Origin: a virus
IMG/VR virus record: IMGVR_UViG_3300046370_000598
Span: 1-64,000 of that record
Length of the DNA stretch: 64,000 nucleotides
Reading direction: 5' to 3' (one strand)
In this document: positions 19,704 through 57,641 of the stretch, one piece after another
How positions within the stretch are numbered: position 1 is the stretch's first letter
How the letters are laid out: each line of letters starts with the position of its first letter
Notes under the pieces: generated by a model
What the model was told of the DNA's origin: nothing
What the model saw: the letters and a program-made list of their open reading frames with translations, nothing else
Databases searched by the model: none
Position numbers and translations under genes: made by a program

Positions 19704-19732
19704 ATCTTAAACTAAAAATAGTTTTTTGTCAA
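19704..19732 (-). promoter_or_regulatory. Sigma70-type promoter, leaderless for the HTH gene
   Basis: On the minus strand TTGACA (19727-19732), a 17-bp spacer and TAAGAT (19704-19709) are seen. Seven bases separate the -10 box from the ATG, putting the predicted start point one base before the codon. Confidence 0.75.
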
Positions 19733-19836: not shown

Positions 19837-19865
19837 TTGACAAATAGTAAAAAAGATGATATAGT
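19837..19865 (+). promoter_or_regulatory. Sigma70-type promoter, leaderless for the 19873 gene
   Basis: TTGACA (19837-19842), a 17-bp spacer and TATAGT (19860-19865). The ATG is seven bases further on. A possible in-frame TTG start at 19837 is in fact the -35 box. Confidence 0.8.
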
Positions 19866-19872
19866 ATGTAGT

Positions 19873-20169
19873 ATGAAATTTATAGATTTAAGTGAAGATA
19901 GATACTTCTGTATAAAGTGTTCAGATTGGTCGGTCATACTTAACGCCGAAAATGCCACAGAAGCTTGTACGTCAGCATTAAAACTTATGATGAACAAGAG
20001 GGGTAGTAATTTGAAATTATCATCAGTGATGATATCCAATGAATTAAAAGCTGATGTTATGGACGAAGATTATGATGAATTAGTCGAATACCATTCAGTA
20101 TCAATGATGCTTGCAAATGCAGGATTTCATGAATTATCATCAAATTTAAAATCTATACTAGGAGCATAA
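19873..20169 (+). CDS. Small conserved-looking phage protein of unknown function
   Basis: 98 residues. I chose ATG 19873 over the longer in-frame TTG at 19837, because that TTG is part of the -35 box. The sequence (MKFIDLSEDRYFCIKC, then SVILNAENATEACTSALKLM) looks like a compact alpha/beta domain; no catalytic motif is recognised. It is first in the plus operon with dNMP kinase, sigma factor and SSB, so it is probably expressed early. The stop is followed two bases later by the kinase ATG. Confidence 0.7.
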   Translation: MKFIDLSEDRYFCIKCSDWSVILNAENATEACTSALKLMMNKRGSNLKLSSVMISNELKADVMDEDYDELVEYHSVSMMLANAGFHELSSNLKSILGA

Positions 20170-20732: not shown

Positions 20733-21335
20733 ATGAGTGAAAACGTTTCAGATATAGATCTTATCAATAATATAAAAGATAATACAAGAGCTAAAGAAAG
20801 CTTGACTCTTCTCGTTGATAGGCATAGCGGTATTTATCTTGACATGGTAAACTCTTACGCTAGTCCAAACAGCCCTTTTACGGATTATCAGGATTTAATA
20901 AAAGACAAAGAATATAGAATATACAACGCAGCGATTAAGTACAACGAAAGTAAAGGTGCAAAATTCAGCACTTACCTAGGGAATGAGACTAGGTGGATGT
21001 GTCTCAATATGTATAATAAAAATAAAAGGAAGCCTACGTTCCATAGTGACTTCTTAGAAAATATGCCAGAAGATGAGGAGATTTCTCAAAATTCAGATAG
21101 TATATCAGAGAATATCAAAAAAGATCTATTTAATAAGGTATTATCTATGATTAGTTCTCACCCAGATAAAAGAGTAGAGAAAATATTCACTATGAGGTAT
21201 ATTGTAGGAAATAAAAACAAAGTTATGCCGTGGAAAGATATTGGTGATGAAATTAATTTAAGTATACAAGGATGTATTAATATACATAATACAGTAGTAA
21301 AAGATTTACAGGAGGAATTAAAACAGGAAATATGA
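20733..21335 (+). CDS. Phage-encoded RNA polymerase sigma factor
   Basis: 200 residues. The N-terminal half has a sigma region 2 pattern: LLVDRHSGIYLDMV, DYQDLIKDKEYRIYNAAIKY, then NESKGAKFSTYLGNETRW. The C-terminal half has a region 4 helix-turn-helix pattern: RVEKIFTMRYI, VMPWKDIGDEI, NLSIQGCINIH. I see no sigma region 1. In tailed phages such small sigma factors redirect host RNA polymerase to middle or late promoters. I infer that this one recognises the GTGTAAATA-type motifs in front of many virion genes. Its ATG is nine bases after the kinase stop, and its end overlaps ssb by four bases. Confidence 0.8.
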   Translation: MSENVSDIDLINNIKDNTRAKESLTLLVDRHSGIYLDMVNSYASPNSPFTDYQDLIKDKEYRIYNAAIKYNESKGAKFSTYLGNETRWMCLNMYNKNKRKPTFHSDFLENMPEDEEISQNSDSISENIKKDLFNKVLSMISSHPDKRVEKIFTMRYIVGNKNKVMPWKDIGDEINLSIQGCINIHNTVVKDLQEELKQEI

Positions 21336-21718
21336 ATAAATATATAGCATTAGGTAATTTAACTAAAGACCCATCACTCAAGACAACTAAAAATGACAAT
21401 GCAGTTTGCGAGTTTTCTATAGCAATAAATAACAAAGTTAACAATTCAGTATTTTATATCGACGTTGAGACTTGGGGAGCAGTAGCAAATAACTGTAATA
21501 GATTTTTATCTAAAGGCAGAAAAGTACTAATTGAAGGTAGACTAGCTTCTAGTTCCTGGCGAAATAAAGAAGGGGAAAATAGAACTAAAATATACTGCAA
21601 TGCGGAAAGAGTAACTTTCTTAGATAAAACAGAAGCAGATCAGTCCCAAAAAACAGATAGCGTTAGTAAAACTGCGGAAAAAATAATTGAAGACGAATTC
21701 GCGGATATACCTTTTTAA
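21332..21718 (+). CDS. ssb: Single-stranded DNA-binding protein (OB fold)
   Basis: 128 residues. MNKYIALGNLTKDPSLKTT, FSIAINN, YIDVETWGAVANNCNRFLSK and VLIEGRLASSSW follow the bacterial SSB OB-fold order. The last residues, EDEFADIPF, are the classic acidic C-terminal tail that recruits replication and repair partners. The length is slightly short of E. coli SSB (178) because the linker is short. It overlaps the sigma gene by four bases (ATGA) and shares one base with the following glycosyltransferase. Confidence 0.93.
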   Translation: MNKYIALGNLTKDPSLKTTKNDNAVCEFSIAINNKVNNSVFYIDVETWGAVANNCNRFLSKGRKVLIEGRLASSSWRNKEGENRTKIYCNAERVTFLDKTEADQSQKTDSVSKTAEKIIEDEFADIPF

Positions 21719-23123: not shown

Positions 23124-23132
23124 GTGTAATAT
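23124..23132 (+). promoter_or_regulatory. Late-type promoter motif GTGTAATAT
   Basis: It lies nine bases before the ATG at 23142 and is one of the set listed in the findings. No conserved -35 element is evident. Confidence 0.55.
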
Positions 23133-24547: not shown

Positions 24548-24556
24548 GTGTAATAG
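24548..24556 (+). promoter_or_regulatory. Late-type promoter motif GTGTAATAG
   Basis: It is five bases before the ATG at 24562, in the 23-bp gap between two virion genes. Confidence 0.55.
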
Positions 24557-27884: not shown

Positions 27885-27891
27885 ATATATA

Positions 27892-27900
27892 TATTTACAC
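27892..27900 (-). promoter_or_regulatory. Late-type promoter motif GTGTAAATA
   Basis: It reads on the minus strand seven bases before ATG 27884 and directly abuts the U-tract of the preceding terminator. Confidence 0.6.
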
Positions 27901-27926
27901 AAAAAAGGCGACCCAATTGGGCCGCC
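27901..27926 (-). terminator. Rho-independent terminator after the repeat-rod gene
   Basis: On the minus strand GGCGGCCC-AATT-GGGTCGCC forms an eight-pair stem (one G-U) with a four-base loop, followed by six T. It ends the transcript of the 27953-30370 gene. Confidence 0.85.
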
Positions 27927-27952
27927 AGAAGATAAATTATATCTTTACTCGA

Positions 27953-30370
27953 TTAGTTTGAAGCCATAACTATCAATTTGTAATCAGTAGCGTTATTTGC
28001 TCCTCCATTGCTAGGAATATCATCAGAGAATACGAATGTCGCTTCTGTATTACTTGCCGAAGTAAGTTGTACAGCTATAATAGCGTCATTAGCACCAGCC
28101 TTTAAGATTCCAACGACCGCAGGAGTCACACCTTGCTCGAATGGGTTCGTAAAGGTAACTGTTTTACTTTCGTCGGTAGTCAATAAATCAACTTCTTCGA
28201 TTCTGGTGATCTGTTGCTTAGAATTAAGTTGTTCAACTTGACCGTGAAGACTAGAAACGTCGCTATCAAGATCATCAACATCACCTACACGCTGAGCTTG
28301 AAGGCTAGAAACGTCGCTGTCAAGATCATCAACATCGCTTACGCGTTGAGCTTGAAGACTAGAAACGTCGCTGTCAAGATCATCAACATCGCTTACGCGT
28401 TGAGCTTGAAGACTAGAAACGTCGCTGTCAAGATCATCAACATCGCTTACGCGTTGAGCTTGAAGGCTAGAAACGTCGCTGTCAAGATCGTCAACATCGC
28501 TTACGCGTTGAGCTTGAAGGCTAGAAACGTCGCTATTTAATCCATCGTTTTCAGTAGTTGCGTCTGCAGCTAAACTTGAGATGTCGCTATCGATATCTAA
28601 GTCCTTCTCTCCTCTTGCAACAGCAAGACTAGAAACGTCGCTATCAAGATCATCAATATCGCTTACGCGTTGAGCTTGAAGACTAGAAACGTCGCTATCA
28701 AGATCGTCAATATCGCTTACGCGTTGAGCTTGAAGGCTAGAAACATCGCTGTCAAGATCATCAACATCGCTTACGCGTTGAGCTTGAAGGCTAGAAACGT
28801 CGCTATTTAATCCTTCGTTTCCAGTAGTTGTGTTTGCAGCTAAACTTGAGATGTCGCTATCGATATCTAAGTCCTTCTCTCCTCTTGCAGCAGCAAGGCT
28901 AGAAACGTCGCTGTCAAGATCATCAACATCGCTTACGCGCTGAGCTTGAAGGCTAGAAACATCACTGTCAAGATCATCAACATCGCTTACGCGCTGAGCT
29001 TGAAGGCTAGAAACATCACTGTCAAGATCATCAATATCGCTTACGCGTTGAGCTTGAAGACTAGAAACATCGCTATTTAATCCTTTATTTCCACTACCTG
29101 TTTCTGCAGCTAAACTTGAGATGTCGCTATCGAAATCAATATCTCTCAAATGAAGACTTGAAATTTCACTATCTGTGTCAGCTTCATCTATGTTTCTTTG
29201 TGATTGAAGACTAGAAATCTCATTAGACAATCCAGTATTTCCACTTCCGATGTCAGCAACTAAACTTGAGATGTCGCTAATTATAATACCAGTATCACTA
29301 CTTGTATTTGCAGCAAGACTAGAAACGTCGCTGTCAAGATCGTTAACATCGCTTACGCGTTGAGCTTGAAGGCTAGAAACGTCGCTGTCAAGATCATCAA
29401 CATCGCTTACGCGTTGAGCTTGAAGACTAGAAACGTCGCTGTCAAGATCGTCAACATCGCTTACGCGTTGAGCTTGAAGACTAGAAACGTCGCTGTCAAG
29501 ATCATCAACATCGCTTACGCGTTGAGCTTGAAGGCTAGAAACGTCGCTGTCAAGATCATCAACATCGCTTACGCGTTGAGCTTGAAGGCTAGAAACGTCG
29601 CTATTTAGTCCATCGTTTCCAGTAGTTGTGTTTGCAGCCAAACTTGAGATGTCGCTATCGATATCTAAATCCTTCTCTCCTCTTGCAGCAGCAAGACTAG
29701 AAACGTCGCTGTCAAGATCGTTAACATCGCTTACGCGTTGAGCTTGAAGGCTAGAAACGTCGCTGTCAAGATCGTCAACATCGCTTACGCGTTGAGCTTG
29801 AAGGCTAGAAACGTCGCTGTCAAGATCGTCAACATCGCTTACGCGTTGAGCTTGAAGACTAGAAACGTCGCTGTCAAGATCATCAACATCGCTTACGCGT
29901 TGAGCTTGAAGGCTAGAAACGTCGCTGTCAAGATCATCAACATCGCTTACGCGTTGAGCTTGAAGGCTAGAAACGTCGCTATTTAATCCATCGTTTTCAG
30001 TAGTTGCGTCTGCAGCTAAACTTGAGATGTCGCTATCGATATCTAAGTCCTTCTCTCCTCTTGCAACAGCAAGACTAGAAACGTCGCTGTCAAGATCATC
30101 AATATCGCTTACGCGTTGAGCTTGAAGACTAGAAACGTCGCTGTCAAGATCATCAACATCGCTTACGCGCTGAGCTTGAAGGCTAGAAACGTCACTATCA
30201 AGAGCTTTTTCTTCAGCAGCTAAACTTGAGATGTCGCTATGATAATCATCGGTTGAGGCAACTACTTGATCGTTTTTATTCTTAAAAACTAAGTTGCCGT
30301 TTTCTGTGGCAGTTAAGCGGATATTGTCCCCATTAACTGATAATTCCTCGGTGCGGAATATTTTTGCCAT
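27953..30370 (-). CDS. Long repeat-rod tail fibre with C-terminal beta domain
   Basis: 805 residues. The N-terminal 40 residues (MAKIFRTEELSVNGDNIRL) resemble a virion-attachment peptide. Residues about 45-715 consist of an 18-residue repeat, LDSDVSSLQAQRVSDVDD, with 23 copies of its SSLQAQRV core. They are grouped in runs of two to five and separated by a longer spacer, AARGEKDLDIDSDISSLAA-type. The regular hydrophobic spacing suggests a trimeric coiled-coil or beta-prism shaft. The last 90 residues (VDLLTTDESKTVTFTNPF, then GVTPAVVGILK) form a compact beta domain, probably the receptor-binding head. No S74 chaperone is present. Confidence 0.7.
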   Translation of the reverse strand: MAKIFRTEELSVNGDNIRLTATENGNLVFKNKNDQVVASTDDYHSDISSLAAEEKALDSDVSSLQAQRVSDVDDLDSDVSSLQAQRVSDIDDLDSDVSSLAVARGEKDLDIDSDISSLAADATTENDGLNSDVSSLQAQRVSDVDDLDSDVSSLQAQRVSDVDDLDSDVSSLQAQRVSDVDDLDSDVSSLQAQRVSDVDDLDSDVSSLQAQRVSDVNDLDSDVSSLAAARGEKDLDIDSDISSLAANTTTGNDGLNSDVSSLQAQRVSDVDDLDSDVSSLQAQRVSDVDDLDSDVSSLQAQRVSDVDDLDSDVSSLQAQRVSDVDDLDSDVSSLQAQRVSDVNDLDSDVSSLAANTSSDTGIIISDISSLVADIGSGNTGLSNEISSLQSQRNIDEADTDSEISSLHLRDIDFDSDISSLAAETGSGNKGLNSDVSSLQAQRVSDIDDLDSDVSSLQAQRVSDVDDLDSDVSSLQAQRVSDVDDLDSDVSSLAAARGEKDLDIDSDISSLAANTTTGNEGLNSDVSSLQAQRVSDVDDLDSDVSSLQAQRVSDIDDLDSDVSSLQAQRVSDIDDLDSDVSSLAVARGEKDLDIDSDISSLAADATTENDGLNSDVSSLQAQRVSDVDDLDSDVSSLQAQRVSDVDDLDSDVSSLQAQRVSDVDDLDSDVSSLQAQRVSDVDDLDSDVSSLQAQRVGDVDDLDSDVSSLHGQVEQLNSKQQITRIEEVDLLTTDESKTVTFTNPFEQGVTPAVVGILKAGANDAIIAVQLTSASNTEATFVFSDDIPSNGGANNATDYKLIVMASN
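28240..30235. repeat. Nested 54-bp tandem repeats
   Basis: A 54-bp unit encoding 18 residues is repeated in tandem with few substitutions. Blocks of 2-5 units alternate with a longer spacer that is itself repeated, giving a higher-order array. Near-identity at DNA level suggests recent expansion or ongoing homogenisation. Confidence 0.93.
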
Positions 30371-48968: not shown

Positions 48969-48977
48969 ATATTACAC
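48969..48977 (-). promoter_or_regulatory. Late-type promoter motif GTGTAATAT
   Basis: On the minus strand, six bases before ATG 48962, within a 20-bp gap that separates a virion gene from the glycosyltransferase block. Confidence 0.6.
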
Positions 48978-49465: not shown

Positions 49466-51442
49466 TTACTTCCTCCTATCGCTATGATACAACAAAGCTG
49501 AAGAATACAAATCCAAATCATATTCTAAAGATAATTGTTGAATTCTATTTATGATATCTAAACTCTCTATATTCTCAGAATTTTCCACGCAAGCTTCAAG
49601 TTTATCTGTCCACAATGATTTTTCTGAAGAAGTAATTATAGATTCGCAGAGATCATTAATTAAAGATTCTTCGGAAGCTTTCAACTTCTTTTTCTTTAAT
49701 TTCTTTCTCATTATCTTAAAACCCTCTTGCCTTAAGGTTTCTGTGGCATATATAATTTCTTGAATATCTTTTCTAGAATATAACTGTTCGGCAGTAACTT
49801 TATTTTCTTGCTTAATTTCGGAAGTTCCAACAGGTCTACCAACCTCTTTTTTTGCGGCTTGATCTTGACTTTCGTCTGATAAAACCGGTGCTCCACCAAC
49901 AATAGGATTATAGAGTCCATTTTTTCTCTGCTCTATATATCTTTCTTGAGCTGGTTGCATTTCCTCGGGCCTTGGGTAAGCCCCTTTTTCTAAAACGTTA
50001 ACCCCTTGCTCTGGAGTTATAATTCCCAATTCCATAAGTCTTGTGGCAACTCTTTGTAATTGAACCTCATCTTTTATATCTACCTGCTCAAATTTTACCG
50101 TTGGATATTTTCTAAATCCAAGGTTTTGACATATCATTTTTACTTGAGGCTGTAAAAAGTCGTAAATAAAAGCGTTCCTAGATTCTTTTAATCTTTCAAG
50201 AAATATCTTCGCTTTAACCTGCGCATTGCTATACCTATCATCACCGACAACTACATTTTGCAGACCTTCTTTTATATCATTATTAATTACTTCATATTTA
50301 CTTGGGCCAACAACTTTGCTTATGTCTGGGATCACAAATTGAGCTTTTGTTGTATAATCACTAACTAAAACTCTCCCAACACTTTCGTTTTTGAATAAGT
50401 TTTGCATAGCTTCCATATTCCTAGGGTTAATCCCCCCCTTATCTGGCTCTGCTCCCATAGTGATTAAAAGAATTACATTTTCAATAGTTCTGCAAATAGC
50501 TTGATCAATTTGCTTTAATTCTAGTTTAAAATTAATATCATCAAGCACAGGGTAACCAAATGGAATAGCGAAAGGTTCATAATCTTGCTTTTTGTAAAAT
50601 GAATAAATTAACTTTGATGGATCTAATATAGTCTTCAATCCATCGGAATTGTAAGAATTTTTTTGTATTTTATCTTTTATGTCTTGATCTAAAGATTCAT
50701 ATACTTGTTGATCATATTCTGTTTTTGGATTTTTTAGTCTTTCAATATCAAACTCAGATAATATCTTTTCATATCTACCTTCCTCAAATGAAGATGATTT
50801 GCTTGCGACAATGTCATAAGGATTTAATAGTATGTATTTTACAGGTAAATTGCCAGGCTTTAACGCTAAAGAAGATCCATATATTTTAGTTAATTTATCA
50901 AAGTCAGATTTGGAAAATTTTCCATCCACACGATACATAAATATATTTCCACTTCTATAATATTCCCTAAAATACTGATCTTTTAAATTCCACAAATTAA
51001 TTCTTTCAAACCATTTATAAACAAAGTCTCTTGAATTTTGAGTTCCTCCCTCAAGATATAAACTTGAATTAGCAAACTCAGACATAACATCTATAGCGTT
51101 CCTAAAAACTGAAATATTTGCATAAGCTTTTTGACATAACTCTATAGTATCCCTTATACTAACTCCGCTTTTATCATAAGTGTATGGAAGTGGGCTGGCT
51201 GCGATATTAGTAAACCTATTTTTTTTATCTGACTTATGAGCAAAATTCTTTCTTGAAGCAAAATCATCAGACCCGCCTTTAGTTCTTTGATAACTAGAAG
51301 CTTGAGATTCCATATAATAAGGTTCTCCTGATGAAAAAGGCGCTGCAGAAAAAGTTTGATTAAAGTCCTCTAAATTGTTGTTTTTAACTTTATCAAATTT
51401 ATTCCAATAATCAGAGCGTTTAATGTATTTTCTTTTACTCAT
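49466..51442 (-). CDS. Portal protein
   Basis: 658 residues. DTIELCQKAYANISVFRNAI, YREYYRSGNIFMYRVDG, PVKYILLNPYDIVASKSSS and IDQAICRTIENVILLITMG follow the order of large phage portal proteins, with a long C-terminal helical and basic region (KIMRKKLKKKKLKASE). The portal forms the dodecameric DNA gate at a capsid vertex and binds terminase. The N-terminal 70 residues are disordered and polar. The start lies behind a weak GTGTA-type motif and is divergent from the gene at 51539. Confidence 0.8.
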   Translation of the reverse strand: MSKRKYIKRSDYWNKFDKVKNNNLEDFNQTFSAAPFSSGEPYYMESQASSYQRTKGGSDDFASRKNFAHKSDKKNRFTNIAASPLPYTYDKSGVSIRDTIELCQKAYANISVFRNAIDVMSEFANSSLYLEGGTQNSRDFVYKWFERINLWNLKDQYFREYYRSGNIFMYRVDGKFSKSDFDKLTKIYGSSLALKPGNLPVKYILLNPYDIVASKSSSFEEGRYEKILSEFDIERLKNPKTEYDQQVYESLDQDIKDKIQKNSYNSDGLKTILDPSKLIYSFYKKQDYEPFAIPFGYPVLDDINFKLELKQIDQAICRTIENVILLITMGAEPDKGGINPRNMEAMQNLFKNESVGRVLVSDYTTKAQFVIPDISKVVGPSKYEVINNDIKEGLQNVVVGDDRYSNAQVKAKIFLERLKESRNAFIYDFLQPQVKMICQNLGFRKYPTVKFEQVDIKDEVQLQRVATRLMELGIITPEQGVNVLEKGAYPRPEEMQPAQERYIEQRKNGLYNPIVGGAPVLSDESQDQAAKKEVGRPVGTSEIKQENKVTAEQLYSRKDIQEIIYATETLRQEGFKIMRKKLKKKKLKASEESLINDLCESIITSSEKSLWTDKLEACVENSENIESLDIINRIQQLSLEYDLDLYSSALLYHSDRRK

Positions 51443-51445
51443 TCA

Positions 51446-51456
51446 TTATGGTACAC
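51446..51456 (-). promoter_or_regulatory. Degenerate late-type motif GTGTACCATAA
   Basis: On the minus strand, three bases before the portal ATG. The GTGTA core is exact but the following A/T run is interrupted by CC. Confidence 0.35.
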
Positions 51457-51498
51457 AAAAGTTAAAGCAAAGTCTATTAAAAGTTAAAAGTTAACTTT
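51457..51498. promoter_or_regulatory. AAAAGTTAA repeats between divergent late genes
   Basis: AAAAGTTAA occurs three times (from 51457, 51478 and 51486). The last copy lies within the perfect palindrome AAAGTTAACTTT (51487-51498). A possible binding site for a regulator controlling both the portal and the 51539 gene. Confidence 0.35.
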
Positions 51499-51523
51499 CG
51501 CTTTCTAATAAAAAAATAAAAAT

Positions 51524-51532
51524 GTGTATATA
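51524..51532 (+). promoter_or_regulatory. Late-type promoter motif GTGTATATA
   Basis: It lies six bases before ATG 51539. An in-frame GTG at 51524 is the motif itself and is not taken as the start. Confidence 0.5.
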
Positions 51533-51717: not shown

Positions 51718-51726
51718 GTGTAATAC
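51718..51726 (+). promoter_or_regulatory. Late-type promoter motif GTGTAATAC
   Basis: It lies eight bases before ATG 51735, starting two bases after the previous stop codon. Confidence 0.55.
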
Positions 51727-51962: not shown

Positions 51963-53933
51963 ATGATTTTTGCGATAACAACTTTAATTTCAGCTTTAAG
52001 CATATCTTTAATCGCAGCCTATTTTAGTATTATAGGTCTAGCAACAATTTTCCCAGGTTCAATGTATGCAGTAATAGCTATGGGATCTGTTCTTGAGATA
52101 GGTAAAATTATAGCGTCTATTTGGTTGCATAAAAATTGGAGTGTTGCACCAAGAATGATAAAAGTATACCTATTTTCTGCTATAGTAGTTTTGATGGGTA
52201 TAACTAGCATGGGTATATTCGGCTTCTTGAGTAAGTCTCATATAGAACATGAACAAAATACAGAAAAATCTATTGCTTTATCAAATCAAGTTGAAGCAAA
52301 AATCGAAAGAGAAAAAGAATATATATCAAGGCAAAAAGAACTTATAAAGCAAAACGAAGAAAAAAATAAAAATTTAAGCGATAAAAGTTCTGAGAATATA
52401 GAATTAGAACAAAAGAAAATATCTCAACTTTCAGAACAGCTACAAAAAGACATTTCGCTAGATCAAGACATGTTAACTTCTATAGAGGTTCGATTAAAAG
52501 AAATGAATCAGGAACTCTCTCAAATACAAAATAAATCTGGAGGTTTATTTTCAAGTAAGAAAAAAGATATTGAAAACAAAACCCAAGAGCAAAAGTCCGA
52601 AAGAGGAGAATTGTCTATTAAGAAAAAAGAGATAGAATCTCGCATATCAAAACATAGAGATGAAACCTCCGCACTTATATCAAATATTCGCAAAAGAATT
52701 CAAGATTATCAAGAAATTGGTTTTGAGAAACCTGAAAATATAGAACAGAAAATAGAAGAACTAAACATTAAAATTAGCGACTCTTTGGATAAAATAGATC
52801 AACTAGAGAAAGAAAAGTTCGATTTAGATGACGGATCTAGACAATTAGAAGCCGAAGTTGGACCAGTAAAATATGTAGCAGAACTAATAGCGGATCTCAC
52901 AGGCATGGAATTTGATATGGGCAAAGCTGTAAGAATAGTAATAATTATATTAATTTTTGTATTTGACCCATTAGCTATATTACTTGTTCTTGCTGCGCAT
53001 ATTAGTTTATCGAAAACCTTTTCAAGTTTCTCTATTAATGAAGACGATATATTCGAAAAAAGATCTAAGCTTGAATTAAAGAAGAAACTACTCGACGATC
53101 AAGAACAAGACTTAGGAGAAAGGCAAAAAGACCTGGATCAGGAAGATAAGATATTAAAACTAAAGGAAGATCAAGTAGAAAAATATAAAGCAGAAATCTC
53201 TAAAAATAAAGAAAAAATTCGTCGATTAAAAATTGAGTCCGAAAAACAAATGCTTCAAAAAGAAGACACCTCTGAGATAATACTTGAAATACAATCTCTC
53301 GAAAAGCAAAAACAATCCGCAAAAAAAGAAATTGAAGAAATAAAAATAGAAAAAAACGAAATCCTAAACAAAGCAGATGAAGCAATACAAAGCGCTAAAG
53401 AAATTAAAGTTGTACTCGGCGATCATAAAAAACAAAAAGATCAAATCAACGAATTAAAATCTGAAGTTTGTATGAACATAGAAAAATTCTCAGAATTTAA
53501 AAATCACATTAACTTGCTTGAATTGGAGAATATGGAACTTAAAAATAGAAAACTTCCTGACCCAAATCAAGATTTAATAAAAAAGATAGAGAGTCTAACT
53601 AGCCAAAAAAATACATTATTAGAAAAAAACTTAAAAGCGAAAAATCAAAAATTATTTAAAGTAAAGATTCGATCTTTAAATGAAAAAAACTTTGAGTTAA
53701 CAATACCATCTGATCTTAGCGGAACTCACTGTTATTATAAAGAAGCAGACTTCACAGATGAACAGTTGGAAGACTATTTAAATATAAGTAAAGATCTTGA
53801 TGCAGAATGCCCTGAAAGAGATGCTGTAGCTCTTGATAAATTATATCATTATAAAATCAATTTAATAGTAGACCCTAAAATTAGCAATAGAGAATACAAA
53901 AAACTTAGAGCTAATTATAAATTTAACCCTTGA
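51963..53933 (+). CDS. Membrane-anchored coiled-coil protein
   Basis: 656 residues. Three hydrophobic segments (about 3-30, 33-56, 64-90; the second includes MGSVLEIGKIIASIWLHK, the third ends TSMGIFGFLSKSH) are followed by a coiled coil of about 200 residues. A fourth membrane segment (about 320-348, IVIIILIFVFDPLAILLVLA) and a second long coiled coil (370-560) come next, then a small C-terminal domain. Similar proteins occur in marine myoviruses, function unknown to me. Membrane remodelling, infection sensing or a tape-measure-like role are all conceivable. Confidence 0.6.
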   Translation: MIFAITTLISALSISLIAAYFSIIGLATIFPGSMYAVIAMGSVLEIGKIIASIWLHKNWSVAPRMIKVYLFSAIVVLMGITSMGIFGFLSKSHIEHEQNTEKSIALSNQVEAKIEREKEYISRQKELIKQNEEKNKNLSDKSSENIELEQKKISQLSEQLQKDISLDQDMLTSIEVRLKEMNQELSQIQNKSGGLFSSKKKDIENKTQEQKSERGELSIKKKEIESRISKHRDETSALISNIRKRIQDYQEIGFEKPENIEQKIEELNIKISDSLDKIDQLEKEKFDLDDGSRQLEAEVGPVKYVAELIADLTGMEFDMGKAVRIVIIILIFVFDPLAILLVLAAHISLSKTFSSFSINEDDIFEKRSKLELKKKLLDDQEQDLGERQKDLDQEDKILKLKEDQVEKYKAEISKNKEKIRRLKIESEKQMLQKEDTSEIILEIQSLEKQKQSAKKEIEEIKIEKNEILNKADEAIQSAKEIKVVLGDHKKQKDQINELKSEVCMNIEKFSEFKNHINLLELENMELKNRKLPDPNQDLIKKIESLTSQKNTLLEKNLKAKNQKLFKVKIRSLNEKNFELTIPSDLSGTHCYYKEADFTDEQLEDYLNISKDLDAECPERDAVALDKLYHYKINLIVDPKISNREYKKLRANYKFNP

Positions 53934-53958
53934 CTTTTTCCTTTTAATTTGATACCCT
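53930..53958 (+). promoter_or_regulatory. Sigma70-type promoter with extended -10, leaderless for the 53965 gene
   Basis: TTGACT (53930-53935), a 17-bp spacer and TGA-TACCCT (-10 at 53953-53958, with an upstream TG). The GTG start is six bases further. The -10 box is weak. Confidence 0.5.
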
Positions 53959-53966
53959 CTAAGGGT
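53954..53966. promoter_or_regulatory. Inverted repeat ACCCT-CTA-AGGGT over promoter and start codon
   Basis: A perfect five-pair inverted repeat covers the -10 box, the predicted start point and the first two bases of the GTG codon. It may be an operator or a start-codon-occluding hairpin. Confidence 0.4.
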
Positions 53967-55799: not shown

Positions 55800-55810
55800 G
55801 TGTATTATAT
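55800..55810 (+). promoter_or_regulatory. Late-type motif GTGTATTATAT
   Basis: It lies three bases before ATG 55814. It could equally be read as a -10 box with poor spacing to the codon. Confidence 0.45.
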
Positions 55811-55813
55811 AAT

Positions 55814-56095
55814 ATGAGCGATGACTTTATAGATCCGGAAAATCTTTCTGAATTTAATTTGCCTGAAAGTATACTTAGACAATTATTTGAATTTACAGGA
55901 TCTTCTATGGGTGACAGCGGCTTCATATTATCTTATGTTAATCAAGATGGACTTCCAGCTGTCCTAACAAAGGCCTCGTCTCCTATTGTTGAGATGGGCT
56001 TAAGAAAAGCTTTAGAGCAATACCTTGAGCAATTATCCTCCCAAGAAATAGAGTTAAATTTTCCACCCGATTCTAACGACGAAGAAAACTCTTGA
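55814..56095 (+). CDS. Small acidic protein of unknown function
   Basis: 93 residues, strongly acidic (SDDFIDPENLSEFNLPES; FPPDSNDEENS). One helical segment, IVEMGLRKALEQYLEQL, is predicted. No recognised family. It lies between the recombination genes and the helicase, under its own motif; the -35 box of the helicase promoter overlaps its stop region. Confidence 0.5.
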   Translation: MSDDFIDPENLSEFNLPESILRQLFEFTGSSMGDSGFILSYVNQDGLPAVLTKASSPIVEMGLRKALEQYLEQLSSQEIELNFPPDSNDEENS

Positions 56096-56120
56096 CATTT
56101 CTGCATCTTTATATTAAGAT
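56092..56120 (+). promoter_or_regulatory. Sigma70-type promoter, leaderless for the helicase
   Basis: TTGACA (56092-56097), a 17-bp spacer and TAAGAT (56115-56120). The ATG at 56127 is six bases further, so the predicted start point is the A of the codon. The same hexamers occur before the HTH gene. Confidence 0.8.
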
Positions 56121-56126
56121 GTAGGC

Positions 56127-57641
56127 ATGATATATTCTTACGAATTAGAACAACATTTAATCGCGGGCTTAATAAAATATCCAGAATCTTATCCGCTTAT
56201 CGCAGCGTTTATAGATAAAGATGATTTTTTTGATAAGAACACAATTGTAAATAAGACTATTTTCTGCGTACTTCGACAAGCATTAGAGTCAGGAGACTCT
56301 CTAGATGAAGTGCTAATAGCTCAAAGAGTCCAATCTCTTAATATATCTTTTGAAGATAATATAAACATTGCAGACTATATTAAAGCGCTTTCTATGAGAC
56401 AAATTTCTAAAGATGGAGTTGTGAAAGCAGCGAAAGAGTTAAAAAAAATAACTGTACGAAGAGAAATACACGACGCATCTATTGATGTTGCTAAAAATAT
56501 GAAATCGATGCCTTCAAGCTCGACATTTGATGATATAGTTGGCGAAGCAGATAAAATTTATAACGACAAAATAAATTTATATGAGATTGGTTCAAATAAG
56601 CCTGAAAATTTATTTGAGGACATGGAAGACTTTATAGAAGAAAGGGGAAATAATCCTATTGATGAATTTGGATTGATGGGTCCACATGCAAGAACTAATG
56701 AACTTTACGGCTCCCTACTGAGGCCTGGAAATATAACCGTTGTAGTTGCTAGAGCTGGAGTTGGTAAAACTCAGTTTTGCATGGACTTTTGCACTAAAGT
56801 TTCTGAGATAAATAATAATGTACCTATATTGCATTTTGATAACGGAGAAATGAGTAAAGAAGAATTAATAATAAGACAGTGCTCAGCAATATCAGGAGTT
56901 CCAATGCATTTACTTGAGACTGGGAGGTGGAGACAAGCAGGAAAAGAAGTTATAGATAAAGTAAGAAGTACATGGTCTAAGATAAAAAAATTTAAATTTT
57001 ACTACTACAACGTTGCAGGTCACTCCGCAGACAGTATGTTAAATATAATTAGAAGGTTTTATTTTTCTGAAGTTGGAAGGGGAAAACCTATGATTTTTAG
57101 CTTTGACTATATTAAGACGAGTTACGAGCGTCAAAATGGAGTTTCCTCCTGGGAGAGTGTTGGTAGAATGGTTGATAAATTTAAACAATTAATTCAAAAA
57201 GAGTTGTGCTTTAATAATAAGCCTGCAGTTGCAATGCTGACAAGCGTACAAAGTAATAGGCTTGGAATTACAAATAACAGAAACTCCGAAAATGTTGTCG
57301 ATGATGAGAGTATTGTTTCTCTGTCAGATCAAATTACTCAGTTTTGTTCTCACTTATTTCTTCTTCGGCAGAAAACAATGGATGAAATTCAATCGGAGCC
57401 CGAGAATTTTGGAACGCATAAATTAATATGCTTAAAATATCGGTGGCTTGGAGAAAATGTTCATAGAGCATTACAACCTGTGGAAATGCCAGATGGAAGC
57501 AAAAAGAAAAATTATCTAAATTTACATATAGAAAATTTTAATATTTCAGAACGCGGAGACTTGCAAGATATGGTTGACCATATAAATTCTGAAGGGGTAG
57601 GTGTTCTTCCTGGCTTGGGAGAAGAGATTCCAGATCTATAA
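56127..57641 (+). CDS. Replicative DNA helicase, DnaB-type
   Basis: 504 residues. The N-terminal 110 residues (LEQHLIAGLIKYPESYPLIA) match the DnaB primase-interacting domain. The RecA-like motor follows, with Walker A VARAGVGKT (about 204-214), ILHFDNGEMSKEELIIRQ, a FSFDYIKTS Walker B and a late LTSVQSNR motif. It unwinds DNA at the phage fork with the primase encoded one base downstream. The leaderless promoter and neighbours place it in the DNA replication module. Confidence 0.88.
   Translation: MIYSYELEQHLIAGLIKYPESYPLIAAFIDKDDFFDKNTIVNKTIFCVLRQALESGDSLDEVLIAQRVQSLNISFEDNINIADYIKALSMRQISKDGVVKAAKELKKITVRREIHDASIDVAKNMKSMPSSSTFDDIVGEADKIYNDKINLYEIGSNKPENLFEDMEDFIEERGNNPIDEFGLMGPHARTNELYGSLLRPGNITVVVARAGVGKTQFCMDFCTKVSEINNNVPILHFDNGEMSKEELIIRQCSAISGVPMHLLETGRWRQAGKEVIDKVRSTWSKIKKFKFYYYNVAGHSADSMLNIIRRFYFSEVGRGKPMIFSFDYIKTSYERQNGVSSWESVGRMVDKFKQLIQKELCFNNKPAVAMLTSVQSNRLGITNNRNSENVVDDESIVSLSDQITQFCSHLFLLRQKTMDEIQSEPENFGTHKLICLKYRWLGENVHRALQPVEMPDGSKKKNYLNLHIENFNISERGDLQDMVDHINSEGVGVLPGLGEEIPDL

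Follow-up and report, generated by a model that had tools for sequence, protein, structure and literature searches.

Two start-locked upstream signals in phages that encode a small two-domain sigma factor

Introduction

Which genes does a phage-encoded sigma factor serve, and can its promoters be recognized in the phage genome? The question is raised by a gene for a 200-residue protein at 20733-21335 of the stretch of viral DNA analysed here, which is the first 64,000 bases (the window) of a 74,957-base IMG/VR record. An earlier note, made from the sequence alone, had read this protein as a phage sigma factor and had paired it with GTGTA(A/T)(A/T)TA, a motif repeated ahead of gene starts, as a possible new class of late promoter. 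The remaining 10,957 bases of the record served as held-out data.

Results

The 200-residue protein and its operon

By its sequence and its fold model, the protein is a true two-domain (sigma2 plus sigma4) sigma factor. The AlphaFold2 model, built with 55 aligned sequences, displays two confident domains with a disordered linker between them and high pLDDT over residues 7-99, and its leading PDB matches are all sigma factors. Thus, both the region 2 and the region 4 assigned to the protein at the outset were recovered. The sigma2 domain aligns to region 2 of sigmaE bound to -10 DNA (4lup; Z 10.5, 2.8 Å over 93 amino acids), and the region 2 complexes 4lup, 2map and 5or5 match it with Z of ~10. 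The sigma4 domain (residues ~124-200) aligns to 3mzy, 2h27 and 3vfz at 1.7-3.2 Å, 3mzy giving Z 9.1 and 1.7 Å over 71 amino acids. Identity in these structural alignments is low (~13-23%), and the sigma profile matches RpoD/SigA with E values of 3e-5 to 1e-3. The protein retains sigma70-family features, namely a sigma2 fold with core-binding and -10-binding helices and a sigma4 helix-turn-helix domain, in an ECF-like sigma2-linker-sigma4 build that has no sigma1.1 or sigma3. Its best viral fold matches are cyanophage sigmas. The recognition-helix region of sigma4 (SIQGCINIH, residues 177-185) is nearly invariant in the 55 aligned sequences.

The gene lies in an operon with the following features:

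19837-19865, + strand: host-type promoter of the sigma operon, TTGACA (19837-19842), N17, TATAGT (19860-19865); first T 36 nt from the ATG at 19873
19873-20169, + strand: first gene of the operon, 98 amino acids
20172-20723, + strand: deoxynucleoside monophosphate (dNMP) kinase (PHROG 139, 1.8e-29)
20733-21335, + strand: phage sigma factor, 200 amino acids; sigma2 ~20751-21029, disordered linker, sigma4 ~21099-21329; fold model pLDDT 87
21332-21718, + strand: single-strand DNA-binding protein (PHROG 44), in a neighbourhood conserved with the sigma gene

The operon also holds a gene for an FmdB-like zinc-ribbon protein. For its first gene we prefer the ATG at 19873 to a TTG at 19837, because the latter is the -35 element itself. 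TTGAC stands 34-38 nt before this start in 35 of 39 homologues, and the sigma gene and its neighbourhood are conserved in all eight compared relatives that hold the region. The first GTGTA box after the operon, at 23124, follows it directly.

The GTGTA box is enriched before gene starts

Counted over the whole window, the motif is unremarkable: GTGTAWWTA occurs 4 times against 2.9 expected and GTGTAATA 4 times against 2.35, so that neither raw count is enriched. Its position relative to genes is a different matter. The motif as first described lies within 40 nt upstream of 6 of the 55 genes in the window (0.21 in shuffles), and in the held-out 10.9 kb it precedes 2 of 10 genes (0.043 in shuffles), a number that 0 of 1000 shuffles reach. 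The proposed enrichment over shuffled sequence is thereby borne out in both portions of the record. The held-out portion has a third box, 14 nt ahead of a start at 73200 whose open reading frame runs off the contig. Indeed, when 5-mers upstream of the genes in this record were ranked de novo, GTGTA came out on top (12 versus 0.8 expected, Bonferroni 2e-8). Inside genes GTGTA is only mildly avoided, at 0.68-0.86 of the Markov expectation versus 0.86-0.89 in unrelated phages, and we give this no weight.

The following boxes precede starts in the window:

23124-23132, + strand: GTGTA box 18 nt before start 23142; kept in 21/21 distinct orthologue upstream regions
24548-24556, + strand: GTGTA box 14 nt before start 24562 (tail-sheath-like protein, PHROG 15433 tail sheath); 17/18 orthologues
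27892-27900, - strand: GTGTA box 16 nt before start 27884; a terminator-like hairpin directly precedes
48969-48977, - strand: GTGTA box 15 nt before start 48962; 14/15 orthologues
51448-51456, - strand: GTGTA box (GTGTACCAT) 14 nt before start 51442; 25/25 orthologues
51524-51532, + strand: GTGTA box (GTGTATATA) 15 nt before start 51539; 24/24 orthologues
51718-51726, + strand: GTGTA box 17 nt before start 51735; 15/16 orthologues
55800-55808, + strand: GTGTA box (GTGTATTAT) 14 nt before start 55814; 31/34 orthologues, TTGAC in 0

Seven of the starts named in the earlier note (23142, 24562, 27884, 48962, 51539, 51735 and 55814) carry GTGTA 14-18 nt ahead, whereas at an eighth, 41095, GTGTA lies ~28 nt from the start and outside the register. 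Two further starts had been listed as weaker sites. The one at 51442 is a genuine site and anything but weak, being among the best conserved, and the one at 30370 carries the variant TGTATATA. The same TGTATATA box also lies 13 nt before the starts of two neighbouring genes beyond the window (68961 and 70447 on G000:C1, L002), whose near-identical upstream regions identify them as a gene duplicated along with its promoter.

Several boxes sit in distinctive surroundings. At 27885-27960 and at G000:C1:72620-72665, a G+C-rich hairpin with a T-run, resembling a terminator, reaches right up to a GTGTA box, an arrangement that fuses a terminator with the next promoter. The divergent promoter region at 51443-51523 contains repeated (A)ACTTT units, conserved upstream of the orthologues of both 51442 and 51539, which may be operator or activator sites. 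In eight contigs (L289, L291, L292, L295, L305, L307, L308 and L309), a 25-amino-acid open reading frame follows the box at the same register and may be a conserved leader peptide or a small gene.

Both signals are locked to the start codon

The geometry of the box was determined on 4,482 distinct upstream regions. The distance from the first base of GTGTA to the start codon is 14 nt in 227 regions, 15 in 126, 16 in 49, 17 in 64 and 18 in 21, with a hard lower edge: 2 boxes at 13 nt and 0 at 12 nt. A second de novo signal, TTGAC(A), is locked at a larger distance, at 33 nt (2), 34 (16), 35 (150), 36 (61) and 37 (46). With the start codon as +1, the logo of this TTGAC class places TTGACA at -35 to -30, TG at -15/-14 and TAnnnT at -12 to -7. 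These are the canonical sigma70 coordinates, and transcription of this class should therefore begin at the start codon. In addition to the promoter of the sigma operon, the window holds these host-type sites:

56092-56120, + strand: TTGACA-N17-TAAGAT, 35 nt before the start of a DnaB-like helicase at 56127; TTGAC in 33/33 orthologues, GTGTA in 0
19704-19732, - strand: TTGACA-N17-TAAGAT, 36 nt before start 19696; TTGAC in 25/29 orthologues
53930-53958, + strand: TTGACT-N17-TACCCT, 35 nt before a GTG start at 53965, in an operon with a UvsX-like recombinase

By the same ruler, GTGTA occupies -14 to -10, and the box together with its A/T-rich tract extends from about -14 to -6. Downstream of GTGTA the sequence is A/T-rich, which gives the form (G)TGTAWWWW. 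The T at the -7 equivalent reaches a frequency of 0.58 with 14-nt spacing and 0.32 (not enriched) with 15-nt spacing. Upstream of 187 dereplicated boxes we found no -35 element, and the information content is near 0 apart from A/T-rich flanks. Besides A/T-rich k-mers, the only specific upstream k-mer enriched is TACAC, the reverse complement of divergent boxes. In line with the original proposal, the motif is thus distinct both from the T4 late box TATAAATA and from sigma70 promoters.

A Shine-Dalgarno core 5-16 nt before the start is found at 0 of 489 GTGTA-class and 4 of 273 TTGAC-class starts, and the same script finds one at 24 of 46 genes in a T4 region. A TA-type signal ~10 nt ahead of the start is an accepted sign that a gene is leaderless (PMC3160421), and in Deinococcus such start-adjacent signals of leaderless genes have been tested by experiment (PMC12340547). 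Because both classes are locked to the start codon in the absence of a Shine-Dalgarno sequence, both most likely give rise to leaderless or near-leaderless mRNA.

The class of promoter follows the gene

Among orthologues, the GTGTA and TTGAC classes almost never mix; rather, the class follows the gene. Beyond the window, GTGTA is kept at 66390 in 9 of 9 distinct orthologue upstream regions, and a weak form before 64396 is not conserved (3/46). Among the first genes of the GTGTA class are those for a tail-sheath-like protein, a protease, a clamp-loader subunit and the large subunit of ribonucleotide reductase; the TTGAC class includes a helicase, a ligase, the small subunit of ribonucleotide reductase, a DNA-polymerase-like protein and rIIB. 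In the loci that surround the terminase, GTGTA precedes 195 of 1,175 genes (2.6 expected) and TTGAC 42 (5.8 expected), and a block of small genes at 80-120 kb in one related record (G013) is rich in TTGAC (16 versus 2). The claim that the motif heads virion genes therefore agrees with its enrichment before the virion module. The label 'late' fits only in part, since the matches at the ribonucleotide reductase large subunit and the clamp-loader subunit speak against a purely late class. As some of its genes are not of late type, we consider 'phage-type class, mostly virion module' the safer description.

The box and the sigma factor persist together

Scans with the single sigma sequence returned no relative. 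Relatives were reached instead through the UvsX-like recombinase (57 contigs, 66-92% identity) and the dNMP kinase (five further contigs), followed by alignment-based scans. The sigma factor was present in nine of 48 records searched, at 43-66% identity, and alignment-based scans of IMG/VR for it yielded 252 and 328 relatives, the phage contigs being mostly marine. No sigma relative was found among cultured phages.

In seven of ten related records (G013, G014, G012, G035, G042, G044 and G009), GTGTA again heads the de novo 5-mers; it ranks third in G033 and is not significant in G046 and G045. In 80 sigma-bearing contigs, some of them near-duplicates, it lies 13-18 nt before starts 121 times versus 4.0 expected, spread over 62 contigs. 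Among 87 dereplicated contigs it is the top k-mer in most larger subclades, down to ~40% sigma identity. The box and the sigma factor stay together even at 26% sigma identity: the 154-kb record G075 keeps both classes, with GTGTA 13 times versus 3.0 expected at 11-19 nt and a TTGAC peak at 35. By contrast, a 140-kb record without the sigma (G066) has neither GTGTA nor a locked TTGAC class, uses Shine-Dalgarno sequences and contains one chance match to the 18-base box. Shine-Dalgarno sequences are also used in two contigs whose only link is the dNMP kinase and whose records yielded no sigma. An IMG/VR scan with the 18-mer box returned mostly chance matches; the sigma occurred in 3 of 29 records with a match versus 0 of 38 control records searched, and 3 of the 29 matches lay at gene starts versus 1 of 117 control matches.

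The host-type promoters of these phages seem unlike the Bacteroidota type. One relative of the sigma (L215, 45% identity) is encoded on a contig that was binned to the genome of an uncultured Flavobacteriaceae; the GTGTA class is absent from the 19 genes of that contig. This binning is possibly a hint at the host and possibly a mis-binning.

Discussion

A scheme for the two classes

The two classes, their fixed spacing, their gene-wise conservation, the lack of Shine-Dalgarno sequences, the lack of a -35 element at GTGTA, the predicted sigma fold and the host-type promoter of the sigma operon can all be read directly from the sequence. From them we infer the transcript start, leaderless translation, the pairing of sigma and box, and an early-to-late order. 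In the resulting scheme, the main sigma factor of the host would read the TTGACA-N17-TAnnnT promoters, which often include TG at -15/-14 and take the start codon as +1, and this host-type class would drive replication and takeover genes together with the phage sigma operon. The 200-residue sigma would then bind the host core RNA polymerase and read GTGTA as a -10-only promoter whose register matches that of T4 late promoters, so that the phage-type class would drive the virion-module genes plus some others. Transcripts would begin at the AUG or at most ~4 nt before it and would be translated without a Shine-Dalgarno sequence. Because the sigma operon itself stands under a TTGAC-type promoter, a simple order suggests itself, in which the host sigma would give way to the phage sigma and this in turn to the GTGTA class.

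We assign a probability of roughly 0.6 to the central element of this scheme, that the 200-residue sigma reads the GTGTA box. The two-class, start-locked scheme taken whole, with this sigma reading GTGTA and with leaderless mRNA, we regard as somewhat more likely than not. We would give even odds to a leaderless design that spans the lineage, with both classes taking the start codon as +1 and a single sigma2 plus sigma4 factor running the -10-only GTGTA class. The pairing of sigma and box is plausible rather than proven, because a second sigma-like protein is encoded beside the terminase in near-complete relatives, and the near-invariance of the box across the family leaves no covariation to compare with either sigma. 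A further point against the pairing is that the recognition-helix region of sigma4 hardly varies although no -35 consensus was found. Searches for a single-subunit polymerase, gp55 and gp45 (PF02916) gave no match, as did their positive controls.

Other readers and other readings

The second sigma-like protein, S2a, found by a Pfam sigma2 search, has ~247 amino acids and a Cys cluster and is encoded 2-3 kb upstream of the large terminase (for example G013:C1:130218-130955, L080:10515-11258; homologues L449-L528), with hundreds of relatives in IMG/VR. If S2a reads GTGTA, the 200-residue sigma would have another role, which we consider unlikely. In its favour, S2a exceeds the Pfam Sigma70_r2 threshold in several records, has a weak fold resemblance to ECF sigmas, is present in 10 of 10 records with the terminase module, where GTGTA boxes are very frequent in its neighbourhood, and occurs together with the 200-residue sigma in two near-complete records (203 and 205 kb). 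Its fold model, however, is poor (pLDDT 68) and its PHROG match weak. Moreover, we found no third promoter class for a second sigma, and hence none that the 200-residue protein could serve if S2a took GTGTA. Two records of 139-146 kb (G033 and G035) possess the GTGTA class and the 200-residue sigma without S2a, but these may be fragments, since the terminase region is absent as well. In place of S2a, both carry a different second, ECF-like sigma.

More doubtful still is that GTGTA represents a variant extended -10 element read by the main sigma of the host, perhaps with a phage activator, and that the 200-residue sigma is incidental. The succession of TG, TA and an A/T tract does resemble TGnTATAAT, extended -10 promoters allow the -35 element to be absent, and, with 14-nt spacing, the -7 equivalent is moderately often a T. 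Yet no base separates TG from TA in the box, the host-type promoters of the same genomes pair their TG at -15/-14 with a -35 element, and orthologues do not interchange the two classes.

It is very improbable that GTGTA is not a promoter and acts instead in translation or repression, as an element of the mRNA or the DNA. Its fixed distance from the start codon would suit such a function, but the TTGACA class, which has the complete anatomy of sigma70 promoters, keeps an equally fixed distance and its orthologues lack GTGTA. In addition, GTGTA boxes come after terminator-like hairpins and occur as divergent pairs. Chance or an annotation artefact of an A/T-rich genome, to which the near-expected counts of exact strings over the window might point, is ruled out by a ~10-100-fold positional enrichment in independent contigs, held-out DNA and orthologues, and by a permuted box that met 1 gene start among 117 matches.

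If transcripts begin at the AUG, these phages would be a natural example, on a large scale, of transcription signals merged with translation signals, and would offer a clean test of how leaderless mRNA competes in hosts with ordinary sigma70 promoters. A leaderless design would also imply that host ribosomes initiate readily on a 5'-terminal AUG. The spacing rule allows start codons and promoters of uncultured phages to be annotated to the base.

Comparison with known systems

We found no description of the GTGTA class in the open-licence literature searched. The two-domain sigma2-linker-sigma4 build is shared with ECF sigmas (E. coli sigmaE, SigW, SigH) and with the sigmas of the Synechococcus phages ACG-2014f and S-CBWM1. 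ECF promoters carry a -35 element. The GTGTA class has no -35 consensus, which sets it apart from them, provided that the 200-residue sigma reads the box.

Leaderless genes of Deinococcus-Thermus and Actinobacteria likewise have a -10 element fixed to the open reading frame and no ribosome-binding site (PMC3160421, PMC12340547); the difference is that here the genes belong to phage genomes with two locked sigma classes, one of which has a clear -35 element. In the Thermus phage phiYS40, most middle and late mRNAs are leaderless (PMC3594737), whereas the phages described here have a sigma factor of their own and a class set by a phage-specific box. The region tested of another Thermus phage, P23-45, has neither GTGTA nor locked TTGAC signals.

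The closest systems are phiYS40 and T4 late transcription, which works alike, although the sequence tests run do not place the 200-residue sigma in the gp55 family. Members of its own family match PHROGs 351, 36 and 1740 but not 234, and hhalign against gp55 of the Pelagibacter phage HTVC008M gave no relationship, whereas that gp55, as a positive control, matches phrog_234 at 7e-65. T4 gp55 structures are not among the fold matches shown, which by itself argues neither way. In HTVC008M itself (L213, L216 and L217), TATAAATA lies exactly 13 nt before the start at four genes and many others have Shine-Dalgarno sequences; this is the spacing that leaderless late mRNA of a SAR11 phage should show.

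T4 late promoters, read with gp55 plus gp33 and gp45, share with the GTGTA class a phage sigma-family protein and a -10-only box with no -35 element and an A/T-rich downstream tract (PMC2988020). The first T of T4 TATAAATA stands at -13, and phage Aeh1 has a late-box variant at -13/-12 (PMC2988020). With the start codon as +1, the form GTGTAAATA falls in the same register (-13 to -6) and differs from TATAAATA by one base plus the preceding G; indeed, (G)TGTAAATA is the T4 box in register with one A-to-G change and a G before it. The GTGTA box is unlike the T4 late box in its G at -14 and -12. The idea of a new late-promoter class is partly supported, and is better put as a variant of the T4-late, -10-only type. 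The two systems also differ in layout: in the T4 region tested, most TATAAATA boxes lie 30-36 nt before starts that have Shine-Dalgarno sequences, whereas the GTGTA boxes are locked to starts that lack them. A last difference concerns the factor itself, as the 200-residue sigma has a sigma4 domain and T4 splits that role off to gp33. The T4 literature asks why the functions of sigma2 and sigma4 have never been fused in one late factor (PMC2988020). A small two-domain sigma that is apparently tied to a -10-only promoter bears directly on this question, and testing the 200-residue protein would therefore be directly informative.
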